Shown here piece after piece: positions 10,468 through 45,021 of a stretch of 45,121 nt of DNA. A model generated the notes under the pieces. That model saw nothing but the letters and a program-made list of their open reading frames with translations, searched no databases and was not told where the DNA came from. Position 1 is the first letter of the stretch; each line of letters begins with the position of its first letter. The stretch lies in NCBI RefSeq assembly GCF_900143145.1, contig NZ_FRDB01000004.1:1-45121 (forward strand). The letters are read 5' to 3'. Both the position numbers and the translations under genes were made by a program. The stretch is from Candidatus Sodalis sp. SoCistrobi. Its GTDB lineage: Bacteria > Pseudomonadota > Gammaproteobacteria > Enterobacterales > Enterobacteriaceae.

Positions 10468-10607
10468 TCACCGCACCGGTAAGGTGACCATCGCGTCGGT
10501 AACACCCTCACCGCACCGGTAAGATGACCATCGCGTCGGTAACACCGTCACCGCACCGGTAAGGTGATCACTCAGTCGGTAAGACTATCATTAAAACGGT
10601 AAGGCGG
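10468..10607. repeat. 40-bp tandem repeat between mtnA and mtnD
   Basis: Three 40-bp units start at 10468, 10508 and 10548, each beginning tcaccgcaccggtaa, with a half unit from 10588. Units one and two differ at two positions; the third has drifted in its second half. Each unit can be read as two related 20-bp halves that share cggtaa, and the first half (tcacc...ggtga) can form a small hairpin. It sits between the 3' ends of two convergent genes, where it could act as a hairpin-rich transcription barrier. Confidence 0.9.
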
Positions 10608-12742: not shown

Positions 12743-12972
12743 TGCGTAACGCTGGCGATGAACGGCTCGACAGCATCACGCCAGAGAGCGGCTCAACAGC
12801 ATAACGCTAAAGAGCAACGCGTAAGCATCACACCAAAGAGCGGCTCGTAAGCATCACGCCAAGCGCGGCTCGTAAGCATCACGCCATAAAGCGGCTCATC
12901 AGCATCACGCCAGAGCGCAGCTCAACAGCATCACGCCAAAGAGCGGCTCATCAGCATAACGCCATAAAGCGG
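12743..12972. repeat. Degenerate tandem repeat of about 26 bp between mtnB and parE
   Basis: About eight units of 24-28 bp follow the pattern gcatcacgccaaagagcggctc plus a short variable linker (aa, at or gtaa). The clean part starts at 12771 and a decayed copy precedes it. The 530-bp spacer 12485-13014 holds no credible gene; apart from this array and the met-box-like site I see only GC-rich sequence. Unit length is not constant, so this is not a coding repeat. Confidence 0.88.
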
Positions 12973-17642: not shown

Positions 17643-17702
17643 TAGCCACTATTTTTCTAATAGCGCTACCCTAGCAATTTTGCTGTTTCAAAAGGAATGC
17701 AA

Positions 17703-19226
17703 ATGAAGAAACTGCTCCCCCTCCTTATTGGACTGAGTCTTGGTGGTTTCAGTGCAATGAGTCAGGCAGAAAATCTGCTACAGGTGTATCAGCAGGCCAG
17801 ATCCTCCAACCCGGATCTTCGCCGCTCCGCCGCCGATCGCGATGCAGCCTTTGAAAAGATTAATGAAGAGCGCGCCCCGCTGCTGCCTCAATTGGGATTG
17901 GGAGCAGATTACACCTATACCCAGGGTTTTCGCGACAACCGTGATATCAATTCCAATGAGTCCAGCGCCGCGCTGCAGTTGACCCAGACCATTTTCGATA
18001 TGTCCAAATGGCGTGCCCTGACTCTCCAGGAAAAAACCGCGGGTATTCAGGATGTCTCGTATCAAACGGACCAGCAATCGTTAATTCTCAATACCGCTAC
18101 CGCCTATTTTAACGTATTGAACGCCATTGATACACTGTCATATACCGAGGCGCAGAAGCAGGCGCTTTATCGCCAGTTGGACCAAACTACCCAACGCTTT
18201 AATGTCGGTCTGGTCGCCATTACGGATGTGCAGAATGCGCGCTCGGATTATGACACCGTTCTGGCGTCCGAAGTTAGCGCCCGCAACGATCTGGATAATG
18301 CGCTGGAAGCGCTGCGCCAGATTACCGGCATGGAATATCCGCAGTTGGCGACGCTGAATATCCCGAGTTTCAAGACCCAGCGGCCCGATGCGATCACCAG
18401 CCTGTTGAAAGAAGCGGAAAACCGTAACCTCAGCCTGTTATCGGCGCGCCTGTCGCAGGATTTGGCGCGTGAACAGATCCGTTACTATCAGTCCGGCCAT
18501 TTGCCGACGTTAGATCTTAACGCCTCGTCAACGGTGAGCAATTCCGACTACAATGGCTCGCGAAACAATTCTGTGACCAATCCCGATAAGCATATCGGCG
18601 GTAACGCCATCGGCCTGAGTCTGAACGTGCCGCTTTATAGCGGGGGTTCCGTCACCTCCCAGGTGAAGCAGGCGCAGTACAATTTTGTTAGCGCCAGCGA
18701 ACAGCTGGAAAGCGCGCACCGCTCGATGGTGATGACCCTGCGTTCATCGTTTAATAACATCTCCGCTTCCATCAGCAGTATTGCCGCCTATGAACAGGCG
18801 GTGGTGTCGGCGCAAAGCTCCCTGGACGCGTCGGAAGCCGGTTATCAGGTGGGCACCCGTACTATCGTTGACGTGTTAAATGCCACCACAACGCTTTATG
18901 ATCGCAAGCGGGATCTCTCCCAAGAGCGTTATCAATACCTGATCAATCAATTGAATCTGAAATCCGCTCTCGGCACGCTAAACGAAGCGGATTTGGTGAC
19001 GTTAAATAATACCCTCGGTAAAACGGTGCCGACCGATCCGCAGACGGTAGCGCCGGAAAACGCGTCGCAGGACGCCCGTGCCGATGGCTCCGATACGCCG
19101 CGTAGCACCAATTCGGCGCGCGAAGGTGCTGCGCAAACGGCCGTCCAGCCCCGCGCGGCCAGCGTGACAACCGCGCCAACCACCGGCACCGGCCGCGCTA
19201 GCGGACGTAATCCTTTCCAGCATTAA
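17703..19226 (+). CDS. tolC: Outer-membrane efflux channel TolC
   Basis: TolC forms the trimeric outer-membrane duct used by AcrAB-type multidrug pumps, MacAB and type I secretion. The precursor has 507 residues. A signal peptide (KKLLPLLIGLSLGGFSAMSQA) is cleaved before ENLLQVY. The two repeated outer-membrane factor domains are seen, with YQVGTRTIVDVLNATTTLYDRKRDL in the second and RFNVGLVAITDVQNARSDYD in the first. The ATG at 17703 follows AAAGGAATGC. The C-terminal 60 residues after NNTLGKTV are Ala/Thr/Pro-rich and poorly conserved, and the last 11 codons are the first copy of an 85-87-bp tandem repeat that continues into the spacer. Confidence 0.96.
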   Translation: MKKLLPLLIGLSLGGFSAMSQAENLLQVYQQARSSNPDLRRSAADRDAAFEKINEERAPLLPQLGLGADYTYTQGFRDNRDINSNESSAALQLTQTIFDMSKWRALTLQEKTAGIQDVSYQTDQQSLILNTATAYFNVLNAIDTLSYTEAQKQALYRQLDQTTQRFNVGLVAITDVQNARSDYDTVLASEVSARNDLDNALEALRQITGMEYPQLATLNIPSFKTQRPDAITSLLKEAENRNLSLLSARLSQDLAREQIRYYQSGHLPTLDLNASSTVSNSDYNGSRNNSVTNPDKHIGGNAIGLSLNVPLYSGGSVTSQVKQAQYNFVSASEQLESAHRSMVMTLRSSFNNISASISSIAAYEQAVVSAQSSLDASEAGYQVGTRTIVDVLNATTTLYDRKRDLSQERYQYLINQLNLKSALGTLNEADLVTLNNTLGKTVPTDPQTVAPENASQDARADGSDTPRSTNSAREGAAQTAVQPRAASVTTAPTTGTGRASGRNPFQH

Positions 19227-19585
19227 GTTCTTTACCGGCGGTTAGGGCAGATATTTGTTTCCCCGGCCGCCGGCACCGATCGCGCTAGCGGACGTCATAC
19301 TTTTCAGCATTAGGTTCTTTCCCGGCGGCCAGGGCAGACATTTGTTTCCGGCCGCCGGCGACGGCCGCGCTAGCGGACGTCGTCCTTTTCAGCATTAAGT
19401 TCTTTCCCGGCGGCCAGGGCAGACATTTGTTTCCGGCCGCCGGCGACGGCCGCGCTAGCGGACGTCTTCCTTTCCAGCATTATGTTCTTTCCCGGTGGCC
19501 AGGGCAGACATTTGTTTCCGGCCGCCGGCACCGATCGCTCTAGCGGACGTCGTCCTTTCCTGCATTAGGTCTTTTCCCGGCGCTA
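19194..19585. repeat. 85-87-bp tandem repeat starting inside the tolC 3' end
   Basis: Units start at 19194, 19281, 19366, 19451 and 19536, each with cgcgctagcggacgt, then a variable few bases, tttncagcatta and agttctttcccggcgg. The first unit includes the last 11 codons and stop of tolC; the later copies are non-coding. Spacing is 87, 85, 85 and 85 bp and the last copy degenerates near 19585. Each unit carries ccggcggcc and ggccgccgg arms that can form a 9-bp stem. The rest of the spacer (19586-19783) shows only the ygiB leader. Confidence 0.92.
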
Positions 19586-19783
19586 GGTGAAACCTCGGCT
19601 TCCCCCTGCCGGCGCCGGCGCCCTTCTTTGCCTATCACTGCACGCGGGGAGGATCACACTGAAGTGTATAACTACGTAAAGATGCGGGCCGCGGACCGCC
19701 CATGCTTCATTTTTCACCGTTTTTACCCTATTCTACAGTGACTTTCTCTGGGTCGAGCCTAATACTAATAAAGCAGGATAATC

Positions 19784-20434
19784 ATGAAACGCACTCAACA
19801 GATTAATCACGCCAGCTTTCGCAAGCATTGGCGCGCTTACCGTATGGCGCCCATCGCGCTGGCCGTCGGTGCCGTTTTTGTACTGGCCGGCTGTGAAAAA
19901 AACGACGAAAACGTTTCGCTGTACATGAACAGCGACGATTGCACCCGAGCCAATCCCTCGTTGGGCGAGCAGTGCACCACCGCGTATAACACCGCACAGC
20001 AGGAAGCGGTGAAAACCGCCCCCAAATACGCCTCGCGCGCCGACTGCGTGGCGGAGTTTGGCGAAGATCAATGTACCCAGGTTCCGGCGCAGGCCGGCAT
20101 GGCGGCGGAGTCGCAGCACAGCGGCAGCATGTGGATGCCGCTCATGGCGGGCTATATGATGGGCCGCATGATGGGCGGTGGCGGCTATGCCCAGCAGCCG
20201 CTGTTCAGCTCGCGCGCAGCGAACAGTCCGGCGCGCGGCCAGTTTGTCGACGCCAGCGGCCGCAACTACGGGGCAGCTACCAGTGGCCGTTCGATGACGG
20301 TGCCCAAAACCGCCCTGGCGCCGAAACCGGCGACCACGCAGACCATCCCCCGCGGCGGCTTCGGCGAGACCGTCGCCAAGCAGAACGCCATGCGCAGCAG
20401 CAGCGCCACCCCTCACCGCTCCATGGGCGGCTAA
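19784..20434 (+). CDS. ygiB: DUF1190 lipoprotein-like protein YgiB
   Basis: This 216-residue protein belongs to the UPF0441/DUF1190 family; its function is unknown, but in E. coli ygiBC is co-expressed with tolC. The N-terminus has basic residues, a hydrophobic segment ([16 protein letters not shown]) and a lipobox-like LAGC, so it is probably membrane anchored. Four further cysteines follow (DDC, EQC, ADC, DQC), then a Met/Gly-rich stretch [14 protein letters not shown] and a low-complexity Ser/Pro/Ala tail ending RSMGG. The ATG follows a gcagga site. ygiC starts seven bases after the stop, so the two are one unit. Confidence 0.9.
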
Positions 20435-20440
20435 CGGGAC

Positions 20441-21601
20441 ATGAAACGAGTCACTCTCGACGAACGGCCGGACTGGCGTGAGAAAGCCACCGAATACGGC
20501 TTTAATTTTCATACCCTGTACGGCGAGCCTTACTGGTGCGAAGAGGCCTATTATCAATTTACCCTGGCGCAAATCGAGACGCTGGAGGCGGCCACCGCCG
20601 AGCTGCATCAGATGTGTTTGCAGGTGGTGGAAAAGGTGGTGGCCAGCGATGCGCTGCTGACCAAATTCCGTATTCCCCGCCATACCTGGTCATTCGTGCG
20701 CCACGCCTGGCAAACGCGTCAACCGTCGCTCTATTCGCGGCTCGACCTGGTTTATGACGGCCAGCATCCGCCCCAATTGCTGGAAAATAATGCCGATACG
20801 CCGACCTCGCTGTACGAAGCGGCGTTTTTTCAGTGGATTTGGCTGGAAGATCAAATAAACGCCGGCAAGCTGCCGGCCAATGCCGATCAGTACAACAGCC
20901 TGCAGGAGAAGCTTATCGCCCGCTTCGCCGAACTGCAGTCGCAGCACGGGTTTAGTCTGCTGCATCTGGCCTGCTGCCAGGATACGGAGGAAGATCGCGG
21001 CACGGTGCAGTATCTGCAGGATTGCGCCACGGAAGCCGGGTTGCCCAACACGTTTCTGTATATTGAGGAGCTGGGGCTGGGAGAGAAAGGGCAGTTTACC
21101 GATATGCAGGATCAGGTCATCAGCAACCTGTTCAAGCTCTACCCGTGGGAATTCATGCTGCGCGAGATGTTCTCTACCAAGCTTGAGGATGCCGGCGTGC
21201 GCTGGCTAGAGCCGGCCTGGAAGTGCATTTTGTCCAACAAGGCGCTGTTGCCGATGCTCTGGCAGATGTTTCCCGACCATCCCAATTTGCTGCCGGCCTA
21301 TTTCGCCGAAGACGATTACCCGCCGATGGACAATTACGTGGTGAAACCCCTGTTTTCCCGCGAGGGCGCCAATGTGCGCGTCTACGAGCAGGGACGCGAA
21401 ACCGCACGCGTAGACGGCCCTTACGGCGAGGAAGGCTCGATTGTACAGGCATTTTGCCCGCTGCCCCGCTTTGGCGACAGCTATACGGTCATCGGCAGCT
21501 GGCTGGTTAACGATGAGCCCTGCGGCATCGGCCTGCGCGAAGACCGGCAGATTATTACCCAGGATCTCTCCCGCTTTTATCCCCACATCATTCTTGATTG
21601 A
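20441..21601 (+). CDS. ygiC: Glutathionylspermidine synthase-like ATP-grasp protein YgiC
   Basis: YgiC resembles the synthetase half of glutathionylspermidine synthetase, an ATP-grasp ligase; the true substrate is unproven. The 386 residues align end to end with E. coli YgiC: the start [23 protein letters not shown], the [20 protein letters not shown] block near 110, DLQDQ-type [18 protein letters not shown] near 225, and the ATP-grasp end [14 protein letters not shown] near 300 with [16 protein letters not shown]. It follows ygiB closely and is probably co-transcribed with tolC-ygiB. Confidence 0.92.
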
Positions 21602-23239: not shown

Positions 23240-23893
23240 TTAGCTTACTTCGCGCGTCAGGGCGCGACGGTAGGCCACCAGATCCTCAATGGTCAGCACC
23301 GGCATGTGGTGTTGCCGGCCAAAGGCGATTATCTCTGGCGCATGCGCCATAGAGCCATCGTCATTGGTCACTTCACACAGCACCCCCGCCGGTTTCAGGC
23401 CGGCAAGGGTGGTCAAATCCACCGCCGCTTCGGTATGGCCGCCGCGCACCAGCACGCCGCCCGGCTGCGCGCGCAGCGGGAAAACATGCCCGGGTCGGTT
23501 AAGATCGGTGGGTTTGGCATTATCTTTGATGGCGGCCCGAATCGTCGTCAGGCGATCGGCGGCGGAGACCCCGGTGCTGACCCCTTCAGCCGCTTCGATT
23601 GTGACGGTAAACGCCGTCTGATAATGGCTGCTGTTGCGTTCCACCATCATCGGCAGCGCCAGCTGCTGGCGGCGTTCTTCGGTCAGGCACAGGCAGACGA
23701 TACCGCTGCCGTGACGGATGGTCAGCGCCATCTGCTCAACGGTCATGTTCTCGGCGGCGAATATCATATCGCCTTCATTTTCACGATCTTCATCGTCCAG
23801 TACCAGCACCCCGCGGCCATTGCGCAGCGCCTCCAGCGCGTTTTCCACGCGTTGGGACGGGGAACCGAATTCGGAAAGAAGCGTCTGATTCAT
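23240..23893 (-). CDS. ribB: 3,4-dihydroxy-2-butanone 4-phosphate synthase
   Basis: RibB makes the four-carbon unit of riboflavin from ribulose-5-phosphate, releasing formate. The 217 residues match E. coli RibB. The catalytic [10 protein letters not shown] motif lies near residues 33-42, and RHGSGIVC, the phosphate-binding [25 protein letters not shown] block and [11 protein letters not shown] follow. The ATG at 23893 is selected; a longer open frame to 24199 reads through the riboswitch and is not used. An FMN riboswitch occupies most of the 5' leader, so the gene is probably shut down when FMN is abundant. B-vitamin genes such as this are often retained in insect symbionts. Confidence 0.96.
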
Positions 23894-24000
23894 GGTAAGT
23901 AAAACCTCATAATTGTTATGGATTACCAGAATCAGGGCAGACTTAGGAGCGGCCGCGAACGGGCCAAATAATAACGATAGCGGGCCGTAGCCCACCTGGA

Positions 24001-24163
24001 CGTCGTTACACTCTCCCATCCGGACTATGACCGTCGGCCCCGGAATTACACCGGATCTGCTGACCTCAGACTGCAAGGCAATCTGAGCGCTCGCGGGCTT
24101 CCTGTGCAATACTTTAGCCAGGTTTACCGCCGGTGGGGAATTGCACCCCGCCCTGAGAATAAG
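24001..24163 (-). ncRNA. FMN riboswitch (RFN element) of ribB
   Basis: On the minus strand the leader reads through all canonical RFN segments in order: cttattctcagggcggggtg at the 5' side, aattccccaccggcggtaa, agcccgcgagcg, a variable hairpin built from cagattgccttgcagtctg, ggtcagcagatccggtg, aattccggggccgacggtc and the closing atagtccggatggg with agagtgtaac. This layout is specific for the FMN aptamer. About 108 bases separate it from the ribB ATG, room for an expression platform. Confidence 0.95.
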
Positions 24164-24293
24164 CAGAAATACTATAGCGCCAACCCGCAGCCGAGGCAAT
24201 TAGCAAACGCATAATTTCGATGAATGCTTTTGTTTCCACTCAGGGGAAACAGGCATTACACTTAACCCATTCTGACCAGTTAGGGAACCGACG

Positions 24294-33122: not shown

Positions 33123-33302
33123 CCGCTACCCTACCGCGTACCGTGCGTCAGATACTGCAAATGCCGTCAGAGATACCCTAACAATGACGCCGGGCGGATA
33201 ACGCTCAGCGGCCCGCGCACGGCCCGTCCCCTGCCCTGCGGCTATCGCCCCCCGCCGCGGCGCAGCAAAAACAGCCAATTAGTCGATCAGTCAGCCCATC
33301 TG

Positions 33303-33366
33303 CCAATCAGCCAATCAGCCAATCAGCCAATCAGCCAATCAGCCAATCAGCCAATCAGCCAATCAA
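33303..33366. repeat. Octanucleotide repeat at the uppP 3' end
   Basis: Seven perfect copies of ccaatcag run head to tail from 33303 to 33358, followed by ccaatcaa (33359-33366). On the minus strand the unit reads ctgattgg. The uppP stop codon (33355-33357) lies within the repeat, so the last residues of UppP (Ile-Gly) are encoded by its first copies and the rest is 3' untranslated. A further diverged copy lies just before 33303. Confidence 0.93.
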
Positions 33367-43853: not shown

Positions 43854-45000
43854 CTACAGCCGGGTTGCCTCAATGTCCCCCTCCCGCAGCAGCGATAGCC
43901 GGGTTGCCTCAATGTCTTTCTCTCGCAACGGCGTTAGCCGGGCAGCCTTAATGTCCCTCTCTCGCAGCGGCGATAGCCGGGCAGCCTCAATGTCCCCCTC
44001 CCGCAACGGCGATAGCCGGGTTGCCTCAATGTCCCTCTCTCGCAGCGGCGATAGCCGGGTAACGCCCACAGCGGCGCGATGGCGGCAAACCATCAGGCTG
44101 AGCAAAAAAACAATCAACGCTACGGTGCCCGTCATCAATGCCTCATATCGGTAAGCCGGCGCGCAGGCCATGTAGCTTAGTACGGCGGCAATGATCCCAA
44201 TACACAGCCAGTTAAGCCAAGGGAACAGCCACATTCTGAATTGGGGCGGCTGCCCTTGGCGTTCCAAAATGCCGCGCATGCGCAACTGGGATACCGCAAT
44301 GACCAGATAGACCAGCAGCGCAATCGCACCGGTACTTGAGAGCAGGAAACCAAACACTTTGCCGGGAAACAGATAATTGGCCAGGCAACCCAGAAAGCCG
44401 GCCGATGTAGAGGCCAGAACCGCGATACGCGGCGTCCCATGGCTGGAAAGCCGCTTACCCAACGCGGGGGCATCCCCCCGGCGGGCCAGCGCGTAAAACA
44501 TGCGCGAGGCGGTATACAGAGCGGAATTCATGCAGCTGCTTACCGCTATTAGCACCACAAAATCCATAATCCGTTTGGCGCCGGGAACATTTAGCACCGA
44601 CAGCACATATTGGAAAGTCCCCTGTCGGGGCAGCGCGGGGTCATCCCAGTCAATCAGGCAAACCACCAGAAAAATCGACATGATATAAAACAGCGCGATG
44701 CGGTAGATAATCAGATTGGTGGACTTACGGATTTGCCTTGCCGGCTCCTGTGATTCCGCGGCGGCGATACTCAAGATCTCCGCACCGAAGAAAGAGAAAA
44801 TCGTCACCAACACCCCACCCAACACCGCCCCGGGGCCGTTGGGCATAAAGCCGCCATGATTGAACAGCCTCGCCGTTCCGCTAATGTCCGCCAGCGGCCA
44901 AAACCCCATCACCGCCAACGTACCGACGACGATAAACGCGATGATGGCCAGTACTTTAACCAGCGAAAGCCAGAACTCAAATTCGCCAAAATGCCTTATA
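43854..45000 (-). pseudogene. gabP-like gamma-aminobutyrate/amino-acid permease, 5' truncated
   Basis: From FGEFEFWLSLVKVLAIIAF onward the frame aligns with GabP-type APC permeases over about eight membrane helices, with the family blocks FFGAEILSIAAAES, NSALYTASRMFYALARRGDAPA and STGAIALLVYLVIAVSQLRMRGIL. Roughly the first 145 residues (helices 1 to 4) of a 466-residue GabP are absent: an in-frame TAA lies two codons before the only start (TTG at 45020), and the residues before IRHFGEF are not family-like. The C-terminus after the last helix consists of five 13-residue repeats ending in TRL. The transporter is not expected to work. The gdh fragment next to it is also truncated. Confidence 0.85.
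43861..44055. repeat. 39-bp in-frame tandem repeat at the gabP 3' end
   Basis: Five 39-bp units start at 43861, 43900, 43939, 43978 and 44017, each beginning cggg on the plus strand. On the minus strand each encodes 13 residues of the pattern TRLSPLREGDIEA with small changes. The unit is divisible by three, so the frame stays open, and the stop codon lies right after the last unit. Confidence 0.95.
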
Positions 45001-45021
45001 TCTTGATCATTGACTTTCAAA

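Follow-up and report, generated by a model that had tools for sequence, protein, structure and literature searches.

A tandem array behind tolC in a Sodalis-group genome, probably a locally born minisatellite that multiplies the 3' hairpin of the gene

Does a row of repeated hairpins between tolC and the genes that follow it represent a regulatory device, or is it mostly a by-product of tandem duplication? The locus raising this question lies in contig C300, the whole of which (45,121 bases) is referred to below as the window. It belongs to a 3.08-Mb draft assembly (397 contigs, 81.8% complete) of an insect-symbiont-like bacterium, labelled G000. Residues 2-461 of the tolC product match the TolC profile NCBIfam NF007002 with 773.6 bits, the cut-off being 495. 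The two downstream genes are presumably ygiB and ygiC; the product of the latter scores below the NCBIfam cut-off for the bifunctional enzyme. Positions of all features are given in Table 1. Further along the window, an FMN riboswitch (24004-24164, minus strand) falls within the 5' part of a predicted open frame (23240-24199), whose actual start is therefore probably further downstream.

Table 1. Features of the tolC-ygiBC region in window coordinates.
Feature	Position	Strand	Remarks
tolC	17697-19226	+	intact, 509 aa; last codons are the first repeat copy
Tandem array	19183-19582	+	period 85, 4.7 copies; Tandem Repeats Finder (TRF)
tolC tail copy 0	19194-19226	+	RASGRNPFQH-stop, the real stop; tolC-frame reading
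Tail copy 1	19281-19313	+	RASGRHTFQH-stop, past the tolC stop; tolC-frame reading
Tail copy 2	19366-19398	+	RASGRRPFQH-stop; tolC-frame reading
Tail copy 3	19451-19483	+	RASGRLPFQHY, stop lost; tolC-frame reading
Tail copy 4	19536-19568	+	RSSGRRPFLH-stop; tolC-frame reading
Hairpin 1	19235-19273	+	9-bp GC stem, two of its pairs G-U; CACCGATCGCGC comes next
Hairpin 2	19322-19358	+	no T-run after it
Hairpin 3	19407-19443	+	no T-run after it
Hairpin 4	19492-19528	+	one C-to-T change keeping a G-U pair; no T-run after it
Last hairpin	19577-19612	+	divergent; weak terminator-like site overlaps its end
Smaller second hairpin	19359-19382	+	in a tail copy, interrupted T-rich stretch after it, tail TCCTTTTC; permissive scan, no more than chance
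Weak terminator-like site	19434-19464		permissive scan
Weak terminator-like site	19579-19622		permissive scan
ACGTAAAGA block	19674-19682	+	conserved upstream of ygiB in the family
ygiB	19784-20434	+	DUF1190 family
ygiC	20441-21601	+	glutathionylspermidine-synthase-like

The tandem array described between tolC and ygiBC in an earlier note on this DNA was recovered by TRF (89% matches, score 593), and the range of 19194-19585 proposed there is right to about 10 bases. A repeat search finds five copies with spacings of 87, 85, 85 and 85, the fifth being 70% like the reference copy. Head-to-tail repetition on this scale goes far beyond chance: five Markov resamples (1-kb blocks) of 276,951 G000 bases gave a single TRF row with a period of at least 30, at score 74. 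Read from 19194, the first unit contains ten sense codons and the stop, one codon fewer than the eleven previously counted; the TRF start at 19183 adds nearly four tolC codons. The TolC profile match stops at residue 461 of 509 and does not reach this repeated tail.

Copies 1-4 are mutually 85-96% alike. Since copies 2 and 3 are 96% alike, the copy number could be an underestimate. The fragmentation of the draft into 397 contigs is compatible with the array having been invented by the assembly, but the copies differ from each other and can be told apart, which argues against this, and a separate array occupies this site in a two-contig genome (G004, probably Sodalis praecaptivus). An assembly artefact is thus very improbable.

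A known structured RNA family was rejected for the unit, as no Rfam match in the array reached the gathering score (best 15.4 bits against a gathering score of 39). A mobile or dispersed repeat was rejected as well: the array occupies a single place in the G000 genome, its units are private to it and the unit core is found in few genomes. Exact matches to this core occur in 3 of 392 family genomes (three in G000, two in G004 and one in G120, the last being probably S. glossinidius), and the only match of a plasmid search was to a tolC gene.

Three parts make up each unit: the tolC tail together with the stop region, a leader, and a hairpin rich in GC. The copies retain both the tail codons and the hairpin, and G120 carries one unit, supporting the proposal that the tolC stop region gave rise to the array. 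The stop is preserved in four of the five in-frame tail copies, counting the real tolC tail. A strong GC hairpin had been attributed to every copy; copies 1-4 have a 9-bp GC stem, and copy 5 is divergent and folds a different stem (hairpin z -1.81). The unit of this last hairpin most resembles the single unit of G120. Hairpin-only slices of copies 1, 2 and 4 gave z values of -3.84, -3.76 and -2.85, the hairpin letters of copy 3 being identical to those of copy 2, and whole-unit folds of copies 1-4 gave -2.32, -3.34, -2.98 and -1.20. A stable hairpin is therefore located just 3' of the tolC stop in this locus.

Such an arrangement permits the reading that copy number works as a regulatory dial: the hairpins would either shield the 3' end of tolC or stop or thin transcription between tolC and ygiBC, and a high number of copies would be maintained by selection. 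The stable main hairpin of copies 1-4 speaks for it, and so do the stem substitutions. Variable sites among these copies amount to 2 of 15 in the leader, 3 of 9 in the 5' arm, 1 of 19 in the loop, 0 of 9 in the 3' arm and 9 of 33 in the tail, and by simple count all three stem changes are exchanges of C and T opposite G which keep the pairing. This kept pairing, together with the invariant 3' arm, counts against regarding the array as a by-product of duplication.

The hairpins had also been proposed to form a series of five potential stops. This is unsupported, since there is no T-run in the 12 bases after any of the five main hairpins and the weak terminator-like sites in the array do not exceed those in shuffled sequences. 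A strict terminator scan of positions 18900-20500 yielded 2 sites against 2.2 expected, with a weak site (19607-19620) at the array end, overlapping the end of the divergent last hairpin. A permissive scan, which tolerates mismatched stems and was controlled with 40 shuffles, found 3 weak sites in the array against a shuffle mean of 2.52 (sd 1.43, maximum 6); all three sit on other or merged stems, without a T-run behind the main hairpins. We consequently reject a series of five intrinsic terminators, in which a T-run would come at once after each main hairpin. Weak stops in the array are possible, without excess over shuffles. The three weak sites favour the dial and count against the by-product reading, while the lack of T-runs behind the main hairpins and of any excess over shuffles speaks against the dial.

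A hairpin behind tolC is common in the family. A z below -1.5 was obtained for 114 of 125 distinct 62-base flanks that follow a called tolC stop, and a T-run is present in 22 of the 125; where ygiB is the next gene, the corresponding numbers are 99 and 16 of 106. These counts include some called stops (e.g., in G070, G042 and G067) that are not the true gene end, and the 62-base flank of G004 has a z of only -0.59, yet its first hairpin slice reaches -2.84. A single hairpin, mostly without a T-run, is the norm between tolC and ygiB in the surveyed loci. Of 107 distinct tolC-ygiB spacers, 86 contain the ACGTAAAGA block, 94-133 nt ahead of ygiB; it is perhaps a promoter or leader element.

The locus has matches in 261 of 392 family genomes, and loci were extracted for the best matches only. 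These include G070 (94%, query 1-540), G120 (88%, 1-575), G042, which we take to be S. pierantonius (84%, 3-421), and G004 (77%, 3-834, array included). TRF was applied to 145 tolC loci, among them the window itself, several loci from genomes represented more than once and some that lack ygiB; in this set, G000 and G004 alone show a long-period array spanning the stop. At the tolC stop of locus L105 there is a shorter repeat, with a 12-base unit in 2.2 copies. The G004 array has a period of 79 and 3.3 copies. Copy anchors behind tolC number five in G000, four in G004 and one in G120, a comparison between related genera in which the genus studied here is represented by one genome. G120 has a single unit and no array, G070 has one decayed unit (z 0.14), no such array and early stops in tolC, and the site in G067 holds one degraded unit without an array. 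In G042 a deletion fuses the tolC tail region to the block upstream of ygiB. Compared by eye with G004, the G042 locus (L120) appears to have lost the tolC tail, the hairpin and the start of the spacer through a deletion between short CCGCGCG repeats. The G070 locus (L118), where tolC has early stops, also shows the ygiB start covered by a direct duplication of 22 bases (2235-2278).

For the dial, this comparison cuts both ways. Arrays are present at the same site in two lineages, and units 1-3 of G004, folded as hairpin-only slices, give z values of -2.84, -1.58 and -2.39; whole G004 units, however, fold no better than shuffles (-0.44, 1.23 and -0.07), and close relatives manage with one unit (G120), one decayed unit (G070) or none, the region being deleted in G042.

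The repeat junction, where the hairpin 3' arm meets the tolC tail, has the same position in the G000 and G004 arrays. Arrays with the same site and the same junction in two genomes would be rare from a random process and count against the by-product reading; the recurrence may be due to selection, to a shared old duplication or to a slip-prone sequence. The second of these options supposes one duplication in the ancestor of G000 and G004, with later homogenisation within both lineages and loss from G120, G070 and G067, in place of two births. It would explain the identical junction and agrees with the unit tree, built on a short alignment and with several low supports, which groups repeat-bearing units together and the last units with single copies. 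However, about three losses are required, units of one genome cluster together (G000 units 1-4 with a support of 0.992) and a 6-base gap is common to all G004 tail copies beyond the gene. We consider such an ancestral duplication a sizeable possibility, without favouring it. As far as the sequences go, two births would fit, and so would one old birth followed by homogenisation and losses. An origin in a single old duplication is compatible with the array being a locally born minisatellite, and both can be true together.

Tandem arrays with a period of at least 30 are frequent elsewhere in this genome: there are 4 in the 45,121-base window, and 40 further G000 contigs, chosen by number and totalling 231,830 bases, contain 19. 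Samples of 400 kb taken at even steps contain 25 such arrays in G004, 20 in G070, 2 in G120 and 10 in G001, an outside genome, and the 40 kb sampled from G042 contain 2. Markov-resampled controls gave 0 or 1 array in five rounds per genome (G042 left out). The sampled density amounts to five to nine arrays per 100 kb in G000, G004 and G070 and to 0.5 in G120. In the material covered by the window and loci L146-L276, long-period arrays are at least 10 times denser in the first three genomes than in G120. The Sodalis group seems to carry such tandem repeats in many places. As arrays of this size are common in sampled G000, a special role for the one behind tolC is weakened, and their abundance in G000 and two relatives makes a tolerated by-product the default reading. 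This general richness in arrays also speaks against the dial, which on balance appears unlikely.

Array units of G000, G004 and G070 form only two pairs matching at E 1e-3, namely the two tolC arrays and one pair inside G004, while several units of G001 match each other and share one family. Gene orientation around the arrays was taken from a crude home-made gene finder. On this basis, convergent gaps hold 10 of 18 arrays in G000 (3.3 expected, P 0.0006), 7 of 22 in G004 (6.0 expected, P 0.38), 9 of 19 in G070 (4.9 expected, P 0.04) and 6 of 7 in G001 (1.7 expected, P 0.0013). Divergent gaps hold 2, 1, 2 and 0 arrays in G000, G004, G070 and G001, respectively (5.5, 5.2, 3.2 and 1.7 expected; P 0.05, 0.02, 0.35 and 0.14). 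A bias towards gene 3' ends is unsupported as a mark of the Sodalis group, since it is uneven among the genomes and the outside genome G001 shows it also. Neither are hairpins supported as a cause or general driver of the duplications, since 59 array units were not richer in hairpins than 177 random stretches of intergenic DNA (P 0.19).

Other repeats of the window include an intergenic array of 40-base units at 10468-10582, whose counterpart is likewise an array in G070 and a single copy in G120, and one of 26/103-base units at 12763-12972, which is shorter in G070 and G120; TRF detected no long-period array matching either of them in the corresponding G004 stretches. An intergenic array of 8-base units is located at 33291-33365, and a 39-base (13-codon) repeat of 5.2 copies (43858-44060) lies within the minus-strand open frame 43854-45020. 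Among titles and abstract openings, with few subscription papers covered, there was no report of the tolC array or of array-rich Sodalis genomes. The accessible part of PMC7067036 describes one plasmid tandem repeat and does not mention tolC, and the words "tandem" and "repeats" are absent from the accessible part of PMC3914690.

Overall, we believe that the array is probably a locally born minisatellite multiplying the tolC 3' hairpin, mostly as a by-product of tandem duplication. The starting point is a tolC gene followed, as is usual in the family, by a single stable hairpin that mostly lacks a T-run. The segment reaching from the tolC tail to the hairpin 3' arm would then have been duplicated head to tail in this lineage, probably by replication slippage or unequal recombination, which the CCGG-rich ends common to tail and arm make plausible at the junction, and would have grown to about five copies. 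It was probably tolerated at a position where harm is small, behind the stop codon and ahead of the undisturbed block upstream of ygiB. As a secondary effect, the repeated stable hairpins could block 3' exonucleases that attack tolC mRNA and may also lower the read-through that reaches ygiBC, instead of acting as serial intrinsic terminators. Judged from the sequence, a modest effect of the array on mRNA 3' ends is possible.

A bolder proposal is that amplification behind tolC is adaptive and repeated in the Sodalis group, giving tolC mRNA a longer life or uncoupling ygiBC, and that the diverged in-frame tail copies serve as a recombination store for swapping the TolC C-terminus. We find this quite doubtful; if true, the tolC site would be one case of a Sodalis-group habit of duplicating short stretches at gene 3' ends. 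With the minisatellite origin that we prefer, the tolC array alone is a minor matter, an ordinary home-grown tandem repeat, and the array density of the Sodalis group is the more interesting lead. If the contrast with G120 is true genome-wide, it raises a question, open to testing, about duplication and repair in the transition to symbiosis, and the arrays could be used as strain markers.

Three known systems invite comparison. The single hairpin between tolC and ygiB of Enterobacteriaceae resembles the unit in lying directly after the tolC stop, mostly without a T-run, but there is one copy in the surveyed loci except G004 and there are five here. REP or BIME elements are palindromic repeats of enterobacteria, GC-rich hairpins of 3' flanks which are sometimes tandem and are thought to protect mRNA 3' ends. 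The tolC array likewise consists of GC-rich hairpins in a 3' flank; however, its unit is private to the locus, whereas several G001 arrays have units matching each other, and we do not assign it to REP or BIME elements, as it is found in one place of G000 instead of being dispersed. Bacterial intergenic minisatellites, or VNTR loci, are the third class. The tolC array differs from them in that its unit includes the end of a gene, and shares with them head-to-tail repeats of tens of bases, an intergenic position, diverged copies and a copy number that differs between lineages.
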